Shown: piece after piece, positions 10,592 to 42,075 of the stretch
Numbering within the stretch: position 1 is the first letter of the stretch
Layout: each line of letters opens with the position of its first letter
From: Neospora caninum Liverpool
Taxonomy: Eukaryota; Apicomplexa; Conoidasida; Eucoccidiorida; Sarcocystidae
NCBI RefSeq assembly: GCF_000208865.1
Contig: NC_018390.1
Span: 200,798 to 264,797, forward strand
Direction: 5' to 3'
DNA: 64,000 bases
Notes under the pieces: generated by a model
The model's database searches: none
The model's input: only the letters and a program-made list of their open reading frames with translations
Told to the model about the DNA's origin: nothing
Program-made: the position numbers and the translations under genes

Positions 10592-12484
10592 TAGAGAAAA
10601 TGCAGAAAGCGCGACTGAAAGATGAGACGACCCTGGACGTTCGTTTTCTTGCCTCTCTTCCTTGAGGGAAGAGAGGCACACGTCAGGCGACACCAGCAGC
10701 GTCGGTAGATTTTTCCATCTGGAGGCGCGAAAATGCGCTTGAGTGGAACGACGAATCTAGCCCGTCCCTCGCCCGTTCGTGCTTGGCGCTCCCCTCGCAT
10801 TTCGCTCGCTGTTTCCCTCCTTTCCCCGAGGCTGCTGCACTTCTCGAAGCCCTACCTGCTGGAAGTAGAGGAGCGAATTACAGAGAAGAGCAAGAATCTC
10901 AAAGACGCCTGCCCCCTCTCTCTCTTCTTCCTCTTCTTCTTTCTCTTCCTTCTCTTCTTTCTCTGCTCTCGCTTCCTTCTCTTCCTTCTCTTCTTCTTCC
11001 TCTTCTTCCTCTTCTCTCGGTTGTGTTGGCGTCGCCCCACACGTTCCTAGCTGTCTCCGCCCCAGAAGGCCCCGCCGCGGTAGCGCCCCGAGCAGATGCA
11101 ACGTCGCAGGGAAGAAGAGTCTCTGCGCGTCCCGCAGGAGAGAGACGCGGTCGTCGCTCGCCGCATCGTCTCCGCGGTCTTCCCCGTCGGCGTCGGTCCC
11201 AAACACCACCTCTTTCAGGAGGTCGACGAACTGCAGTCGCGTGCATGCATCCAGAGTCAGATCGCAAGGAGAAACAGGCAACGCGGCGAGAGCGTGCGAC
11301 TCCCGAGAATCCGCACCTTCGCAGGAACGGTCCTCCGAGGGTTCTCTCGACACGTGAACCCGGCCCCGCGCCAGTGCTCGCGGTTCTCGCTTCAAAACAC
11401 TGCAAGCGGCAAGAAGAGGACTGTCCCCCAAGGCCGATGCCTTGCTGCACGCCAGAGACGCAAAGAGATAGCGGAAAACACCCTCGCGACACCCTCGAAG
11501 ATCTTCTTCTGACGGCCGTGCCTCGCCGGCAGTTTCTCGGGGAGTCGGGTCGCCCAAGTGTTTCTTGTGCGCGTCGCGTGGCGGGCTTTCGCGCTTGCGA
11601 GTCGATCGGTTCGTCTTTCGCATCTCGAAAGGCCACGCCAGAAGCCAGAGCGGCTGCAGAAAAGACGGAACTGAACGCAACGCTTCAGCCTCGCCTTCCT
11701 CGTGCGACTCCCGGTCGCCGCTGACGAGGGCGAGAAAGCGCGAGAGGCCGAGCAGGTGGTGCACGGCTGAGGCGAGATCTGCATCGAGGCGCGCGCTTCT
11801 GTCTCGCCTCTCGACGCAGATCTCGCCCCACGGCCGCTTCCCTTTCTCGGCCTGCTCTGCCTCGCCAGTCCGGCTGGAGCTTGCGTGTGCGGCGCCTCGG
11901 GAGTCTCGCCAGCCCGTCCCTCGACCTGTCTCCTTCCGGCTGCTCGACTTCCCCGCGGGGCGACGCGGAGACGCGCGCGAGGCAACTGTCCAGGTGTCTG
12001 AATCTGCCTCGCCCGCGACCAGGCCTTCGGGGCAGGGACTCCGGCTAGCCCACCAGAAGACTGCATGCAGCAGAGCGAGGGCGGAGACCGTGCGTCGAAA
12101 GAAGGCACTCAGTGCAGGCAGAGGAACAACGCCTTCCAGGGCTGCGTCGTCTGCAGCGTTCCTGCGCTGCGTGTCTCCAACAGGCCTCTCGCCTTGAGAT
12201 TCGCCAGCGCCTTGCGCGCACGAGGAAGGAAGCGCCGACGAATCGAGCACAGACCCAGCCGCAGCCTTCGAAGAACCCGGAACAGACGAGGAAGAACGTG
12301 TGGCATGGGAAGAACAAGCGAAAGAGGAAGAGGGAGACCATACAGGCGAAGGGAGAGGGGTCGCAAAGGTAGAAGTCGAGGGAGATGTGGCGGTAGACGA
12401 GTCGGCGAAACTCGGTTGTCGAGGCCAAGAGAGACACGGCGCAGTCGACGAAAGAAGAAGAGGCGCAGAGGAAGCGGAGACCAT
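10592..12484 (-). CDS. unknown protein, about 591 aa, acidic repeat near C-terminus
   Basis: The main exon runs from ATG 12484 (context GACATGG) to a gtaggg donor after 10856; a last exon 10738-10592 follows in phase and ends in TAA. Early residues are Ser/Thr/Pro-rich, then come helical segments (PALSAFFRRTVSALALLHAV, HHLLGLSRFLALVSGD) and, near the end, a run of about 40 Glu/Lys codons followed by FEILALLCNSLLYFQQ. The frame stays open upstream of the ATG to a convincing acceptor (ctgtacag) at about 12553, so the true start may be in an unseen exon. Function unknown; the helix-rich pattern resembles the gene downstream, and the two could be parts of one larger gene. Confidence 0.5.
10651..10677. 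other. perfect 11-bp hairpin with 5-nt loop
   Basis: GCCTCTCTTCC and GGAAGAGAGGC are exact reverse complements separated by TTGAG. It falls in the proposed last exon of the 591-aa minus-strand gene, so it may simply be a structured stretch of mRNA. Confidence 0.85.
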
Positions 12485-12716
12485 GTCAGTGAGGCGAATC
12501 AAACACGCACTCAGAACGGCCTCCAAGCCCCGGAGCAAACAGAGCTGCCTGTACAGACACCCCACAAACACACAAACAGATATATATATATATATATATA
12601 AATATAAATATGTAAACAAAGGAAAAGGGAACCTTTTTCAAGTGTCATCAGACCGTATATCACCGAGAGACGAGTGAGACACGCGTAAACAGATACCCAG
12701 GCGACGCGGAGGAGAT

Positions 12717-35049: not shown

Positions 35050-35929
35050 TTACTCCTGTGAGCTGTGCCGCCTCTCCTTTTTGCGGTTTCTGGAGCCTCG
35101 GTTCTTCTCGTCCTGCTCAGACTCTTCGCGCTCTTTGCCTGAGGAACCTCTTCCTGCTTCGCCTGTGTCGCCGGTATGTCCAGAGTGGTGTCGGCGTTCG
35201 TCTTTGGAGCTGGACTCGCCTTTCCTCTTCTTCCTTTCTTCTCTGTCTCCTCGCTCTTCGCTGTCCTCCCGCCTGGACTTCTCGCGCCGTCTGTGGCTTT
35301 CTTCCTTCTCCCGTTTCTTTTTCGGTTCATCTTCTCGGCCTCGGCGACTTCGCCTCTCTCCCTCTCTGTCGCGCCTTCCTCGCTCCTCGCCGTCGCTCCC
35401 CGATGCCTGCTCGTCCTCTCTCTGCCGTCGCTGCCTCTCCTCTTCTGCTTCCGCCCGCGCTCGCTCGTCTCGCTCTCTTTCTTCCGGCGGTCCTCCGCTG
35501 AAACCGGACGCAGAATTAGAGTTGCCGGAGGGGACAGCCTCGCGACCGGCAGCAACAAACAGTTCTCGCTGTGCCTCCTTCTCGCTGCGCAAACCCTCGC
35601 CGACAAATCGGCTTTCATCCGCTCCGTAGTTCTTCTCTGTGCGATCGTCGTGCAAATCCCATCGACTCCGCTTCTTCGTGTCGCCTTCCGCGGAAAGGTC
35701 CAAGTTAACGCCCTGCAACGCTCGCTGAGTCGGATGCTCAAACGTCTTGGACGTCGCGGGAACAAACGAAGACAAACACTTCTCCTCCTAACAGACGAAC
35801 AGGCACAAACGCCAACCAATCGCCACTCCCGTCTCTGGTTCCGCATGCATGTGCTTGTCCATGTCTGCCGTTTCATCTCGTCATACATCTATATATACAT
35901 AGATATATACGCTCACACATATATACACT

Positions 35930-35965
<36 letters not shown>

Positions 35966-37564
35966 GCAGCTATGTGCACCTTTCCGCATCCAAGTCCAGG
36001 TGGATCCGTCCCTTCGTATTCCTCAGCACAATGCATGCAGACGCATTTATCTTCGAGCAAACGCATGCGCGAATTCCGGCGACAGCGAGGAGCACCGAGA
36101 AGCGGGGCAGTCCACCGGGGTGCGAGCGGCTTCGGACGGTGGATTACTTTTCACACACCGCACAATACGCGGAAACGAACATTCGAAAAGGCATGTGCGA
36201 ACCACGGGATAGAAGCGAGCGACGGAGAGCCTCCAACCTCGTCCCATTTACGAAAAAACCCAGCAGAACGCGACGAACAAAACGCCCAAGACACCTCCAT
36301 CCAGAAAACGATATCCCTGTATCCACCTTATACATATAAATATACGAATACGGATATATAGAGATCTGTAGCGATGCATGCATGTATACAAGTACATATG
36401 TAAGTATGTGTACTTTTATACATGCCTAAATGTAAAGAAAGTGTCCCCAAAAGGCGGAACAGATCGGTACAGGCGACCACGAGTCGCATGCAGAGGTCGT
36501 CAAAAAATCGGGGGTTTTCAAGAAAATATCGACCTCGATGTGTGGAGGCCTTCGCAATTTTTTTACGCGCAAAGAGAGCGGGACGAGATGCAGTCATCAA
36601 GGTGACAAACGAGACAGCAAAGCGACGGAACCGAACAAAAGTCTGCTTTCAAGTTAAGAAACATACCCCCAGAAGGGCGTTTTGAACAGCCCGTTCCTCC
36701 TTCGTCAAGTTTGCATAGTTCACCTGGAAAGAAAGACAAGAGAAAAAAGTGGAATTCATCCAGAACAGACGATTGACGCGCTCGCACGAAAATCTTCTAC
36801 GCTGCATCTAACCAAAAAGAACGCGGATACATGAGCACGGACGCACGAAGATACTGTATATCTCTTCATGCAAAAGCATACAGCTTTAAACTCTGAGTTA
36901 CCGTCTAGGAGTACCTTTGTGCATCGTTGAAAAGCAGGGGAATAAGGCGGCTCAGCGCGTCCAGTGTCTTTTTCGTTCAGTACCACTTTTTTTTTCATAT
37001 CTCGCTCTTCAATCTTGGCCTTCTTGTGCCTTCGTCTCCAGTCGGCAATCTCTTTTTCTCCTCTCACATTCTCTGTTTTCTTCCTCCCTTCTCTGTTTCT
37101 TCCTCCTTTCTCTGTTTTCTTCCTCCCTTCTCTGTTTCTTCCTCCCTTCTCTGTTTCTTCCTCCTTTCTCTGTTTTCTTTCTCCTTCCTCTGCTTCCTCA
37201 CAGTGATTGGTCGGCCGCAGAGATGCCTTCCCGAGAGCTCGAGAGCCGTTCGAGCGTCTTTCTTGTCAGCAAATTCGATGAAGGCAATGCCGCGCACCGC
37301 AAAGGCGTCTGTGAAAGGAAAGAAAAACACCTCCCCGAGAACACATGCATCTACAAGGACAGAGAAACATTGCATGCAAGGTCGTCTCTTCACACCGACC
37401 CAGCAAGCTCGTGCAGGCCGTCATGGAATACTCTCTCGTTGACAAAAAACACAGAGAACAGCAACAACGTCCATATCTCATTCATAAACCAGTGCATGCG
37501 CCTGACTCGATAAAGATATAATATATATATATATATATATGTAGATATATATATATATATATAT

Positions 37565-37599
<35 letters not shown>

Positions 37600-37811
37600 T
37601 AGATATGGAGGTAGTTGTGAATATGAAGGTCTCTTGCACACATCCACGTTTCGACATCTGCACGGTCAGCAAATGCGCGCACAAAGCTACATTTCGCGTT
37701 GATCGATCTTGACAAGCCTACATGTATCCACAAAGTTATATGTATATGTACACATATATACATATATTCACATCTGCACAGATAAAAAACGGTAAAACCG
37801 AGACATACCTA

Positions 37812-37847
<36 letters not shown>

Positions 37848-40800
37848 TCGCGTTGATCGATATTGACAAGCCTACATGTATCTACAAAGTTATATGTATA
37901 CGTACACATATATACATATATTCACATCTGCACAGATAAAAAACGGTAAACCCGAGACATACCTCTCTCTCTCTCTACATATATATATATATATATGCAT
38001 GTATGTGACTATGGGCATCTCTACAGAGAGGGGGAAATCGCAGAATTGCTGTATTTTTTTCGCAACTTTGGGCATTTCCTTTTAGCACCTTCTGCGTCGT
38101 TTGAGATAGACCGGTCGATTTGCGGCAAAGAGACGTCAACGATTGGGCCGATCGGACCAAAGAGCTCGCAAATGTCGTAACGACTCGTGTTGTAGGCGAG
38201 GCCTCCGATAAACAGCTGAAACGCCGAAACCGCATGCACAGAGTCCAAAAGATCCGCTATGAAGACAGGCAAAAACGCGGGAGTCTCCCTCTCTCCTCGG
38301 CTGTTTGGAGGCCTTCCTGGGCAACGGTGTCTCGCCCGGTCTTCCAATCTCGCTTTCCGTCCAGTCGCCTTTTCTGCTCAAGTTTCCTTCCATGTGTCTC
38401 TTTTCTTCTCTGTCTTTCACTGCTTCGTTTCTGCCTGTTTCCCCGCTGTCGCGCTCCTCTTCGTCTCTTCGTAGACGTCTCTCCTGTCTCCCTTCTGCAC
38501 ATCTCGCTCTATTCCGGCTGGCGTGCCTGTCGCTCGCTCGCTCTGCCTTGTATCTTTTTTCTGGTTTTTTCTGTCTCTCCAGCTTCTCTCTGGCCTTCTC
38601 GCACTCACTCGATTCGCGCTTTTGTTCAAGGAGCTCGGATCAAAGTCGTCTTCGAGCATGGCAATTTCTTTCCTCAACTCTCGACTGCGTCGCTGCAGGT
38701 AGTCGAGGATGCCTGTGTTGTCGATCTGCCGCAGCAAAGCAGAGAAGCGCGCATGCCGAAAGCGGCCAGGCTCCCAAAAAGAAACTCTCGCGAGTAAAAC
38801 GCATGCACAGTGCGAAAGAGACTCCACGCTCAGGAAAAAAAGGGACTAGAAATCCTGGCAGTCAAGAAACCCGCTCTTCTGCAGCAATCCTTTGGCCACA
38901 AAAACTACCGCCACATTTCGTCTGCGTCTCTATCTCCTTTCGGCCTCGCTGTCTCGCCTTCTCTCGCTTCTCGTAAGGCTCCACTTCTTGTCCTTTCTCC
39001 TCTCGATCGCCTTCTTTCTCGCTTTACTCTCTCTGCGGCGCCGCGGGTCCCTCGTCTCGTCGCCAGCATCAAAACGTCTACTTTTTCTTTCTGGATTTCT
39101 ACTTTTCTTTTGTCTCTGCTTACTTCCAGGAGATACTGACGCGTGGAGGTTCCCAGACTGATGATGTCGTTCGTCTCGATCTGGACGCCCACGTGGTCAT
39201 TTTCCAGTGCAACGCCGTTTCTGAAACACAGAGAGGGAAAAGCGACGAAATTAAGGAGAAAATAAAAAGAAAAAGAGTTTCCGTTCCCGAGATCAGCGGG
39301 GCGGGCGTGTGGGGGGGGGGGGGGGGAGAGGCTCTCGCGTTTTCTTCGGACTGCAGTCGCCACGCTCAGACTGCCCTCCTTTCTTTTCCTCTTTTTGTGC
39401 GACACTCCTGAGATTTTTGGCAGCACTTGAATCAGATTCGTTGGCGAAAAACACAAAACGTGTGAAGCGAAAAGCAAAACAGAAAAGCGAGGGAAAAAAA
39501 ATCGAAGCAAACACGGCGAACGAGAGCTCAGAACCAGAAAGAAGACGGAGAAAAGGAAAGAGGTGAGAGACAGAGAAAGAAGAGAGATCTTACTTGAACG
39601 TTTTTGCTTTGCTTTTCAAGTCAATCAACAAGATACTGCCTCCCTTGAGCACAACGAGCGCCGCATGTCGTCTCGAAATCGAAGGATTGAGCGCCACGAG
39701 ATCGTTGTCAGGCAGCTTTCCTGAACAGAGAAAAACAAACCAGCGACAACTCACAACAAAGTCTCAAAGCACGCTTCGGGCACATCCAGACGGGCGAGCA
39801 CACGGATCATTGCATGCAGATGGATATCTCCACGCAAAACTATAAACGTATATATATATATATACATATATAATTAGATGTGTTTGCATGCGTGTGTGGA
39901 ATGTTGGTGTTTTCCGCACTTTAGAAACTTTTGAGGAGAGTCTCGAGCGAACTGAACTGCAGGGCCAGCGGGAAAACACATGAGATCAGCTTACGAATAT
40001 GGCATATGCATGCACACTCTCTTCAATGTACAATATATGCATTTCTTTATGTGGAGTTAAACGTATATCTATATATTCGTGCATAGATAGATGCAGTGTC
40101 GCGGTTCACGGATCGAACTGTGGACGCATGAATGCATGCGCGAGTGCTTACCGAGTCTGTAGAAGCTCTTCCCTTTGAGGACGATTTCCGTGACTTGAGT
40201 TTCCCCTTCCTTCCTCTCCAAGAGCTTCAAAATGGGAACGGAACGTTCATCAGTCTCGATGTCGTGGCAGATAACGATCCACGCTGTACATACAGCCGGG
40301 AAAAAAATCCACCGTGCGAACGCGCCCACACTCCAAACGATGTACAAATGAATATGCATACATTAACTAGGCATTTATTTGCAGATAGATCCACATCTCT
40401 TTGCTTAAATGCATGCGGAGATGGACAGAAAAGAGGTGGACGAGACAGCTCCTCCTGCGCCTCACCGGTTGCGTACATACACCCCAACACCTCAGCGCCT
40501 CTACATAAATATACACATGCATGCGCATTTGCAAATGAAAGCGCGTATGTCTAGATGCATGGCTGGATGACTTTAAGCGACGCGGAGATTTCTTACATTC
40601 GAGTTCTGTGTCTTCATTGATGTTTGTGCGGATTTCCATGAGGATTCGTCCCAAGTGGTTTTGGCCTCGATTCCCCACTTGGCCGAAGAAACTGTCTCCG
40701 TTGTTCAGCCACACCAACTCGCGGCCGCCAGTGTTCCGCAGCTTCTCGCGGAGGTCTGTGCAAAACAAAAACACCTTGCGAAGAGACAAGCATGAACGCC

Positions 40801-42075
40801 CGGAAAACGAGACCAGGAACGAAGGGAAAGAGAAGCAAAGACAAGAGAAGGAAAGGCGCATTCCACACACAGTGCAGAAGATATGAAGTGGAAGAGGGAC
40901 AGAGCCGGAGAGGAAGAGGAGAAGAGCATGAGAGAGGGATGAAGAGAGAGAAAGAGAAAGAAAGAGACAAAGAAACAAGAGAGAAAGGAAGAGAAAGAAG
41001 AAAGAGAAGGACAGAGACAAAGAAACAAGAGAGAAAGAAGAAAGAGACAAAAAAGCAAGAGAAAGAGAAGGAAAGGGAAGAAAGAGAAAGAAGAGAGAGG
41101 AAGAAGAGAAAGAGAGAGGAGGGAAGAAGAAAGAGACCAACCTGCGTGGCGGCGGAATTTGTCGCGTTGGATATGCTCTAGCCACTTGAGTCGCAAGCGC
41201 ATCCAGTCCGGATCTTCCTAAAAGCAAATCAAGTGAGAGGGTACGCAGGAGGGAAAAACACGAACATGGTCAAGGAAAGCCGCGGCTCCAAAAGACATCT
41301 CTCCAGACCACCACGACGAATCCCCACGCCGGCAAAACGAGGACAGCAAACTAGCACGCATTTCTTTCCCCCTCTGTTTTCTGCTCCTTTCCCACTTCCA
41401 TTCCTCCTGTTCCTTTAATTTTCCCCCCTTCCTTCTCTTCCTCCTTTTTCGTTTCTTGACTCCACCAGTTGACGCAGATCTCCGGGGCGCACCGAAAAAA
41501 AAACCGGCGAAAATCGTTCTCTGTGCACTGTGCGCGACCGCCTTTTCACGCCTCCTCCCTCTCCGTTCCCTTTCTCTCTCTCTCGCGTTCTTTTTTCACT
41601 CTCCATTTGTCTGCCTCTTTCCCCCTCACGTGCGCTCCCTCTTTCCCCCCTCTACTTTCCCTTTTCCCTCTTCGCCTGTTCGCCTGTGTCAAGAGCTTTC
41701 GAGATGCCTGCTTTCGGCGCGGCGCCAGGCATGTGTTTGGCCGCTTCCTGCGTCTCTCACCTCCTTCTCCTTTGCGACTTTCTTGAGGGTTTTGATGTCC
41801 TCGATGATGCTCAGCTCGTCAACCGCTTTCGGGTACCGGGCTGCTAGCAAGGCGTGTCGCGCGGACGGGAAGAACCGTCCTTGGAAGAACACCAGGCATG
41901 GATAGTCGAGCGACAGGAACTTGTACTCGCCAGTGAACGAGTCGATTCGGGTGTACATACACCGCGCGGCGGCAGCCAGCTGCGCAGGCGTTAGGAGCAC
42001 GTGCTGATCCGCGAACGAGCCCACAGCGCCTCCCAGCACGCGGCCTGTCCCCGCAGGAGTGAACGGAGTCGTCAT
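35050..42075 (-). CDS. NADAR-FHA-RRM fusion protein with SR/RE-rich tail, 683 aa
   Basis: Eleven minus-strand exons close in phase: 42075-41761, 41217-41142, 40755-40597, 40283-40152, 39720-39594, 39220-39124, 38725-38609, 38215-38089, 37308-37202, 36723-36667 and 35787-35050 (TAA). Residues about 45-180 match the NADAR/YbiA (DUF1768) fold: YKFLSLDYPCLVFFQGRFFP, HADLREKL..TGGRELV and the closing GDSFFG...GQNHLGRILMEIR. Residues about 185-300 are an FHA domain: LNPSISRRHAALVV and later NDIISLGTSTRQYLL. A helical linker (LDYLQRRSRELRKEIAMLED) leads to an RRM at about 341-425 with RNP2 LFIGGLAYN and RNP1 RGIAFIEFA. The last exon is Arg/Glu/Ser/Lys-rich (SR-like), typical of nuclear splicing-associated proteins. 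Likely a nuclear RNA-binding protein that reads phospho-Thr via FHA and perhaps ADP-ribose via NADAR; the combined role is inferred. Confidence 0.88.
37692..37985. repeat. tandem duplication of about 155 bp in an intron
   Basis: Two near-identical copies start TTCGCGTTGATCGAT (copy 1 begins within 37696-37710, copy 2 at 37846-37860) and end in CGAGACATACCT followed by (CT)n and (TA)n. They differ by scattered substitutions (GATCTTG/GATATTG, ATCC/ATCT, AAAACC/AAACCC). It lies in the intron between RRM exons 38089 and 37308 of the NADAR-FHA-RRM gene. Confidence 0.9.
40870..41135. repeat. polypurine (GA-rich) tract, intronic
   Basis: About 260 bp almost purely of A and G with AAAGAGA/GAAGAGA units on the plus strand. 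It sits in the intron between exons 41142 and 40755 of the NADAR-FHA-RRM gene, so the transcript carries a pyrimidine tract. Long purine tracts can form triplex structures and slip during replication. Confidence 0.85.

Follow-up and report, generated by a model that had tools for sequence, protein, structure and literature searches.

The FHA proteins DDL, NIPP1 and kanadaptin have roles in RNA processing, and NIPP1 is recruited to the phosphorylated splicing factors SF3B1 and CDC5L. To our knowledge none of these three, nor SNIP1 or Pml1 (of the RES complex), carries a NADAR or an RRM domain. A NADAR domain occurs in an RNA-splicing context in the nematode trans-splicing protein SNA-3, for which homologues outside nematodes are given as absent in the available part of its description (PMC9303266). 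According to the same partial text, SNA-3 has three NADARs, the first of which is devoid of the active-site residues, and an FHA or RRM domain is not mentioned there. NADARs are furthermore reported to be absent from chordates (PMC11543638, section 8), and the domain should accordingly lack a counterpart in vertebrate hosts.

The window analysed here is a stretch of 64,000 nucleotides from Neospora caninum Liverpool, a parasite of cattle. It contains a gene in which NADAR, FHA and RRM domains are fused. Like SNA-3, the encoded protein would place a NADAR in a splicing context, and it belongs to a family that has lost active-site residues from this domain; unlike SNA-3 it has a single NADAR, joined to an FHA and an RRM. 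It differs from E. coli YbiA, the DarT1-associated NADAR and the Phytophthora NADAR in this fusion and in the replacement of both ribose-contacting glutamates. By profile and fold, its FHA domain is near those of SNIP1/Pml1/DDL, NIPP1 and kanadaptin. We consider it probable that the protein is a nuclear RNA-processing scaffold, most likely associated with splicing, with a repurposed NADAR pocket. Nematode SNA-3 would then no longer be the sole case of a NADAR fold that entered RNA processing; the fusion would add a second lineage, with the hydrolase glutamates replaced throughout and an altered phosphate site in the FHA. The initial annotation knew of no description of such an architecture, and literature searches of incomplete coverage gave none either.

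A single spliced chain with three domains

Splicing of the minus strand from 42075 to 35050 joined 11 exons (Table 1) into 2052 nt of open frame, coding for 683 amino acids and a stop codon, and all ten introns had GT-AG borders. The chain was identical (100% over 100% of its length) to P0002, the 'putative RNA recognition motif-containing protein [Neospora caninum Liverpool]', which agrees with the eleven exons and single 683-residue product proposed initially. In the alignment, the MATPF/MTTPF start in exon 1 was also present in the Besnoitia, Eimeria and Cyclospora rows, and exon 4, with the NADAR-FHA link, was co-linear in those of Cystoisospora and Eimeria.

Table 1. Exons of the fusion gene (positions in the window) and the protein segments that they encode.
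Exon	Position	Strand	Content
1	41761..42075	-	Residues 1-105, from the start codon through the N-terminal region into the first half of NADAR; R73, R80
2	41142..41217	-	NADAR; W110, R114
3	40597..40755	-	End of NADAR: W146, D151, GQNHLG motif
4	40152..40283	-	NADAR-FHA link; start of FHA
5	39594..39720	-	FHA core: GK229, SISRRH, DLKSKAKTF
6	39124..39220	-	End of FHA
7	38609..38725	-	Helix 306-329 between FHA and RRM
8	38089..38215	-	First half of RRM; RNP2 LFIGGL
9	37202..37308	-	Second half of RRM; RNP1 RGIAFIEF
10	36667..36723	-	End of RRM and NLTKEER helix
11	35050..35787	-	S444/S451 region; KKRSRWD at 477-483; charged RE/RD-rich tail; stop

All three domains scored above their Pfam cut-offs: NADAR at residues 66-176 (E 1.1e-13; 52.2 bits, cut-off 35.1), FHA at 225-293 (E 7e-13; 49.2 bits, cut-off 20.7) and RRM_1 at 342-418 (E 5e-11; 42.7 bits, cut-off 20.7). 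The three domains named in the initial annotation were thereby recovered, the NADAR match inside residues 45-180, where it had been placed. A YbiA-like fold accompanied the NADAR profile match, a beta-sandwich fold that of the FHA, and RNP1 and RNP2 that of the RRM. The structure model built from 8 sequences (mean pLDDT 61.6) was weaker than that built from 52 (mean pLDDT 74.5). Matches in a viral structure library were mainly viral NADAR, FHA and RRM proteins, together with some replicase and unnamed entries.

As the splice sites within the window are predicted only, the chain might be a gene-model chimera of two adjacent genes. This is extremely improbable. The same architecture recurred in coccidia, in a dinoflagellate, in transcriptome-derived proteins and in many unassigned metagenomic single chains. 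NADAR, FHA and RRM are combined in one chain in P0021, which bears the name of an MMETSP transcript, and in P0015, a EukProt entry whose name resembles a transcriptome ORF; P0018 is a chain of 617 residues with a longest contig of 2022 bases. Since these three are single chains, separate transcripts divided between exon 3 and exon 4 are unlikely, and a two-gene chimera was rejected.

NADAR and FHA were both found in 52/52 members scanned and the RRM in 45/52, in a family collected partly via its NADAR. The protein searches needed shared 5-residue words, and two of the three were saturated at about 8,000 candidates. No Plasmodium, Cryptosporidium or piroplasm name was present among the matches listed, most of which are nameless, so that absence from these groups is not implied. 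We suspect that the large unassigned part of the family tree represents ciliates.

Relatives and phosphate site of the FHA domain

In profile comparison the FHA domain was nearest to NIPP1 and kanadaptin, and by fold it grouped with SNIP1/Pml1/DDL; among the FHA matches, SNIP1 and Pml1 occur in spliceosome or splicing-factor entries. On account of this kinship by sequence (NIPP1, kanadaptin) and also by fold (SNIP1/Pml1) an RNA-processing role is likely. The likeness is no proof of a splicing partner, because other FHA domains rank high as well: a chlamydial FHA (5.8e-10) and the uncharacterised 2n84 (9.5e-10) preceded DDL and SNIP1 in the profile ranking, EmbR was among the first Foldseek matches, and CEP170 (Z 16.3) and EmbR (Z 15.7) were near the top of the fold comparison.

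The phosphopeptide-contacting residues of the Rad53 FHA served as reference (PMC5549992). N. caninum retains G228, S243 and H246, and the Ser and His that match Rad53 Ser85 and His88 were each kept in 61/61 rows. The position of Rad53 Arg70 is occupied by K229 and that of Asn107 by A266; Arg was present in 1/61 rows, with Lys or other residues in the remaining 60/61, and Asn in 0/61. NIPP1, kanadaptin and two other N. caninum FHAs do have the Arg in the same alignment. Loss of the Asn is not decisive, as NIPP1 and kanadaptin are without it too. Judged from these residues, textbook phosphothreonine reading by this domain is doubtful, which weakens the initial assignment of the FHA as a phospho-threonine reader.

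It could nevertheless be argued that the FHA reads phosphothreonine in the canonical way and thereby brings the protein, bound to RNA, to a splicing factor that is phosphorylated, with the NADAR as a passenger. The close relation to NIPP1 and kanadaptin and the invariant Ser and His would fit this, but the near-complete loss of the Arg, which those relatives keep along with two further FHAs of N. caninum, and the absence of the Asn do not, and the NADAR's presence in every scanned member speaks against a passenger, though members were found partly through it. We regard this explanation as rather unlikely.

Six FHA profile matches were obtained in the N. caninum genome, one of them being the fusion gene. 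Among the five other loci, L005 and L006 have the Gly-Arg pair and L010, a fragment with an STNGT motif, presumably resembles SNIP1. With these loci present, replacement of other FHA splicing proteins by the fusion protein is not supported.

The ribose-contacting sites of the NADAR domain

Part of the pocket for the ADP-ribose phosphates is kept. The K50 position is R80 in N. caninum, with R or K in 52/57 filled rows; in the NADAR alignment Trp was found at the W89 position in 57/59 and Arg at the R93 position in 51/59. Both ribose-contacting glutamates are replaced. E43 of the YbiA SEH motif corresponds to R73 (Glu in 0/57 filled rows) and E125 of the VEH motif to W146, where Glu was found in 0/60 filled rows and Asp was absent too, although a short insert in some rows makes the placement there less secure. 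In the E. coli C7 NADAR, substitution of the structural equivalent of E125 abolished efficient guanine de-ADP-ribosylation. Because Glu occurs at neither site in any filled row, hydrolysis by this domain seems unlikely; the E43 equivalent would not be decisive by itself, and the case depends mainly on that of E125. For NADAR and FHA alike the fold is present, but their usual chemistry cannot be taken for granted.

Could the NADAR still be an active hydrolase, targeted by the RRM and FHA, that frees RNA or DNA of ADP-ribose or another N-glycosidic group? The conserved fold and phosphate contacts, other acidic residues close to the lost Glu (E143 in N. caninum; D/E in dinoflagellate rows), a PARP-type transferase in the genome (3/3 matches above the cut-off, at one place) and two KptA-type loci would be compatible with this. 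Against it stand the missing glutamates, the effect of the E. coli C7 substitution and the failure of the DarT profile to match in the genome. The latter, from a search whose control matched in 1/14 genomes, also led us to drop a DarT-type partner. Taken together, an active hydrolase is improbable. Also improbable is the idea that the pocket, with an Arg and a bulky residue instead of two Glu, is a reader and not an eraser, binding ADP-ribose or an NAD-type RNA cap uncut, with FHA and RRM setting this reading within the alveolate splicing machinery. If so, NAD or ADP-ribose status would influence alveolate RNA processing.

RRM domain, tail and proposed role

RRM domains usually have aromatic residues at three RNP positions. 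Here F343 is at RNP2 position 2 and F393 at RNP1 position 5, with Ile at RNP1 position 3. The tail is rich in K, R, E and D and partly of low confidence in the structure model. The N. caninum tail belongs to the RE/RD type, whereas RS repeats are present in Eimeria relatives such as P0006. Sarcocystidae have a KKRSRWD motif (residues 477-483 in N. caninum), which resembles a U2AF-ligand motif (ULM). In ULMs a basic stretch precedes Arg-Trp and an acidic residue follows it. When the N. caninum tail was shuffled, 0.8% of the shuffled sequences contained the strict ULM-like pattern; it was present in 7/61 homologs, with 0/9 rows of the Eimeria/Cyclospora clade having it. In Hsh155, R100 and W101 are needed (PMC6633205).

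For the splicing-associated scaffold that we favour, the following can be envisaged. The RRM, judged by its profile, fold and aromatics at two of the three RNP positions, would hold RNA. The FHA, of the NIPP1/kanadaptin/SNIP1/Pml1 type, would let the protein dock onto a partner connected with splicing, in a manner that is independent of phosphate or uses a modified phosphopeptide contact with Lys at 229 and 265. The NADAR, retaining its fold with R80, W110, R114 and D151, would most likely act in binding rather than in hydrolysis, given the aligned loss of Glu. The tail and the Sarcocystidae KKRSRWD could add contacts with splicing factors.

The T. gondii counterpart is probably TGGT1_267600, a phosphoprotein that responds to SPARK depletion. 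TGME49_262780, obtained in a MOB1 pull-down, is another 'FHA domain-containing protein' entry and was provisionally set aside. Phosphosites S406 and S413 published for T. gondii, presumably of the same gene, are in the linker that follows the RRM, and phosphorylation there may regulate the protein. Their counterpart area is the S444/S451 region of N. caninum; the first site is not conserved, S444 being Ala in Cystoisospora and a gap in Eimeria P0007 and P0008. An RNA-processing factor, as first proposed for this gene, stands as the best guess from the FHA kin and the phospho-regulated probable ortholog, while its suggested tuning by ADP-ribosylation has lost ground with R73 and W146 in place of both glutamates. 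Loss of the SPARK kinase pathway promotes the chronic stage, and this pathway would be linked to an RNA-binding protein if the Toxoplasma gene is indeed TGGT1_267600.

Gene model and domains

In-frame joining of eleven exons (42075-35050, minus strand), with GT-AG borders at all ten introns, yielded a chain of 683 residues with end-to-end identity to P0002, the database protein of Neospora caninum Liverpool. The assembly concerned comprises 57.5 Mb in 14 contigs. Pfam detected NADAR, FHA and RRM_1 in the chain; below cut-off, Yop-YscD_cpl overlapped the FHA and RRM_7 the RRM. This bears out the initial annotation, which had placed the three domains and eleven exons in a single chain and had made a NADAR profile match to residues 45-180 a test of it. 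The fusion is a real architecture.

Coordinates of the gene, its domains and related loci in N. caninum (exons in window positions)
Feature	Position	Strand	Evidence
Exon 1	42075-41761	-	spliced model
Exon 2	41217-41142	-	spliced model
Exon 3	40755-40597	-	spliced model
Exon 4	40283-40152	-	spliced model
Exon 5	39720-39594	-	spliced model
Exon 6	39220-39124	-	spliced model
Exon 7	38725-38609	-	spliced model
Exon 8	38215-38089	-	spliced model
Exon 9	37308-37202	-	spliced model
Exon 10	36723-36667	-	spliced model
Exon 11	35787-35050	-	spliced model
NADAR	residues 66-176		Pfam E 1.1e-13, above curated cut-off
FHA	residues 225-293		Pfam E 7e-13, above curated cut-off
RRM_1	residues 342-418		Pfam E 5e-11, above curated cut-off
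KptA-type locus	G000:C10:2067474-2068331		genome profile search
KptA-type locus	G000:C9:4676369-4677975		genome profile search
L001, second NADAR match	G000:C11:632760-633116	+	genome profile search; C2 domain upstream in same protein

Intron 8 contains a 154-base unit present twice (37691-37996, 94% matches), and intron 9 a 19-base minisatellite (37049-37196) directly after the exon 9 donor. An ORF at 10760-12637 on the minus strand matched PPP4R2 weakly (E 0.0028, 17.7 bits versus a cut-off of 27.4).

Distribution of the fusion

The first protein search returned 17 proteins, from coccidia (N. caninum, Toxoplasma, Besnoitia, Cystoisospora, six named Eimeria and Cyclospora), the dinoflagellate Effrenium voratum, the EukProt entry P0015 and four others. 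With 33 new proteins from a second search and 11 from a third, the family counts 61 members, fragments included; 39 second-search matches (P0052-P0090) that matched through FHA or RRM alone were left out. Among 52 members scanned with Pfam, all had NADAR and FHA and 45 had RRM_1; P0021, named as an MMETSP transcript, has all three. In a tree of 59 members, rooted at the midpoint only, the coccidian rows clustered (support 100/99), P0015 adjoined them (100/99), and together they grouped with three dinoflagellate-type rows (100/100). Among the remaining rows, outside this group, is one EukProt transcript entry. The fusion would be older than the coccidian-dinoflagellate split if inheritance was vertical; the architecture is apparently old.

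The E. voratum protein (P0016) carries an isochorismatase domain (PF00857) after its NADAR-FHA-RRM part, reflecting either an additional fusion or a chimera in the gene model. The FHA or RRM of P0004 (Besnoitia), P0012 and P0014 (Eimeria) contain odd stretches or lack parts, which look like intron/exon errors in the gene models. In the very divergent P0050 and P0051 (418 residues), F and D replace the W and R of the NADAR, and the first Ser of the FHA is Tyr.

In line with the initial annotation, no description of a NADAR-FHA-RRM protein was found in the titles and abstract openings of the papers listed, nor of DUF1768 together with RRM, in a search covering few subscription journals. FHA and RRM are absent from the main text of a 2022 survey of viral NAD and ADP-ribose systems (PMC9503650). 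The combination does appear in databases as precomputed Pfam lists, so the architecture was found to be catalogued, without discussion in the literature searched.

ADP-ribose setting and phosphate site

NADARs are described as reversing guanine ADP-ribosylation and as occurring in several eukaryotic groups, chordates excepted (PMC11543638, PMC11125620). The nematode protein SNA-3, which has three NADARs, the first devoid of active-site residues, is reported to be required for spliced-leader trans-splicing (PMC9303266). Profile searches of the N. caninum genome were run exon by exon, and their figures are lower bounds: PARP catalytic segments occurred in at least one place, macrodomain matches in at least three, and KptA-type (RNA 2'-phosphotransferase) loci numbered at least two, of which the first was strong and the second split into three pieces. 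DarT gave no match in these searches. The second NADAR (L001) lacks the Glu at the SEH position and scored 36.9 bits, just above cut-off, in one search and 33.7, just below, in another. No guanine-ADP-ribose system facing the NADAR of the fusion protein was evident in the exon-wise searches of this genome.

The best solved relatives of the family FHA profile were NIPP1 (9.2e-15) and kanadaptin (2e-14), followed by a chlamydial FHA (5.8e-10) and the uncharacterised protein 2n84 (9.5e-10); DDL reached 3.5e-8 and spliceosomal SNIP1 1.8e-6. The upper FHA rows of the fold comparison were kanadaptin (Z 17.2), DDL (16.8), CEP170 (16.3), yeast Pml1 (16.1) and EmbR (15.7), with the spliceosome entries 8i0p chain X at 17.0 and 7dvq chain X at 16.6; the latter is SNIP1 by its entry name in the profile search, and the former presumably the same. 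Because rows at most one Z unit apart are tied, the splicing group is not singled out by fold alone.

Gly69, Arg70, Ser85, His88 and Asn107 of Rad53 FHA1 are described as critical for phosphothreonine binding (PMC5549992). The claim that the FHA reads phosphothreonine was weakened: the equivalents of Gly69 (59 of 59 filled family rows), Ser85 and His88 (both 61/61) are kept, whereas that of Arg70 is Arg in 1/61 rows (Lys in 26) and that of Asn107 is never Asn (0/61). Lys precedes the latter position in 58/61 rows, at what we take to be Rad53 Thr106. In the four FHAs aligned for comparison, those of NIPP1, kanadaptin and two further N. caninum loci, the Arg is present and the Asn absent throughout. 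The family FHA could thus bind phosphothreonine through the lysines, which is not to be assumed. The proposed RNA-processing factor with signalling domains is a real fusion whose function is partly as guessed. Most likely it acts as a scaffold in RNA processing, with both signalling domains diverging from textbook chemistry.

The probable Toxoplasma counterpart

In a phosphoproteome of SPARK-depleted T. gondii, TGGT1_267600, an 'FHA domain-containing protein', is given sites S406 and S413, and 'a FHA protein' is mentioned together with PRP8, SLU7 and pseudouridine synthases (PMC11321763). Both positions are Ser in P0003, the T. gondii homolog (stretch CLSSFVPATSK), whose 728 residues contain only four serine pairs so spaced. 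On this basis P0003 is likely, although not proven, to be TGGT1_267600. The equivalent N. caninum residues are S444 and S451; the surrounding stretch is conserved, the sites themselves only in part. S444 is replaced by Ala in Cystoisospora and by a gap in Eimeria P0007 and P0008; at S451, Cystoisospora and P0008 have Ser and P0007 has Asp.

P0003, a T. gondii VEG model, is probably mis-annotated at its N-terminus, since 27 unrelated residues stand ahead of GRFFPSARH versus 65 residues in N. caninum. It is this short model with which the numbering of the published S406 and S413 sites agrees.
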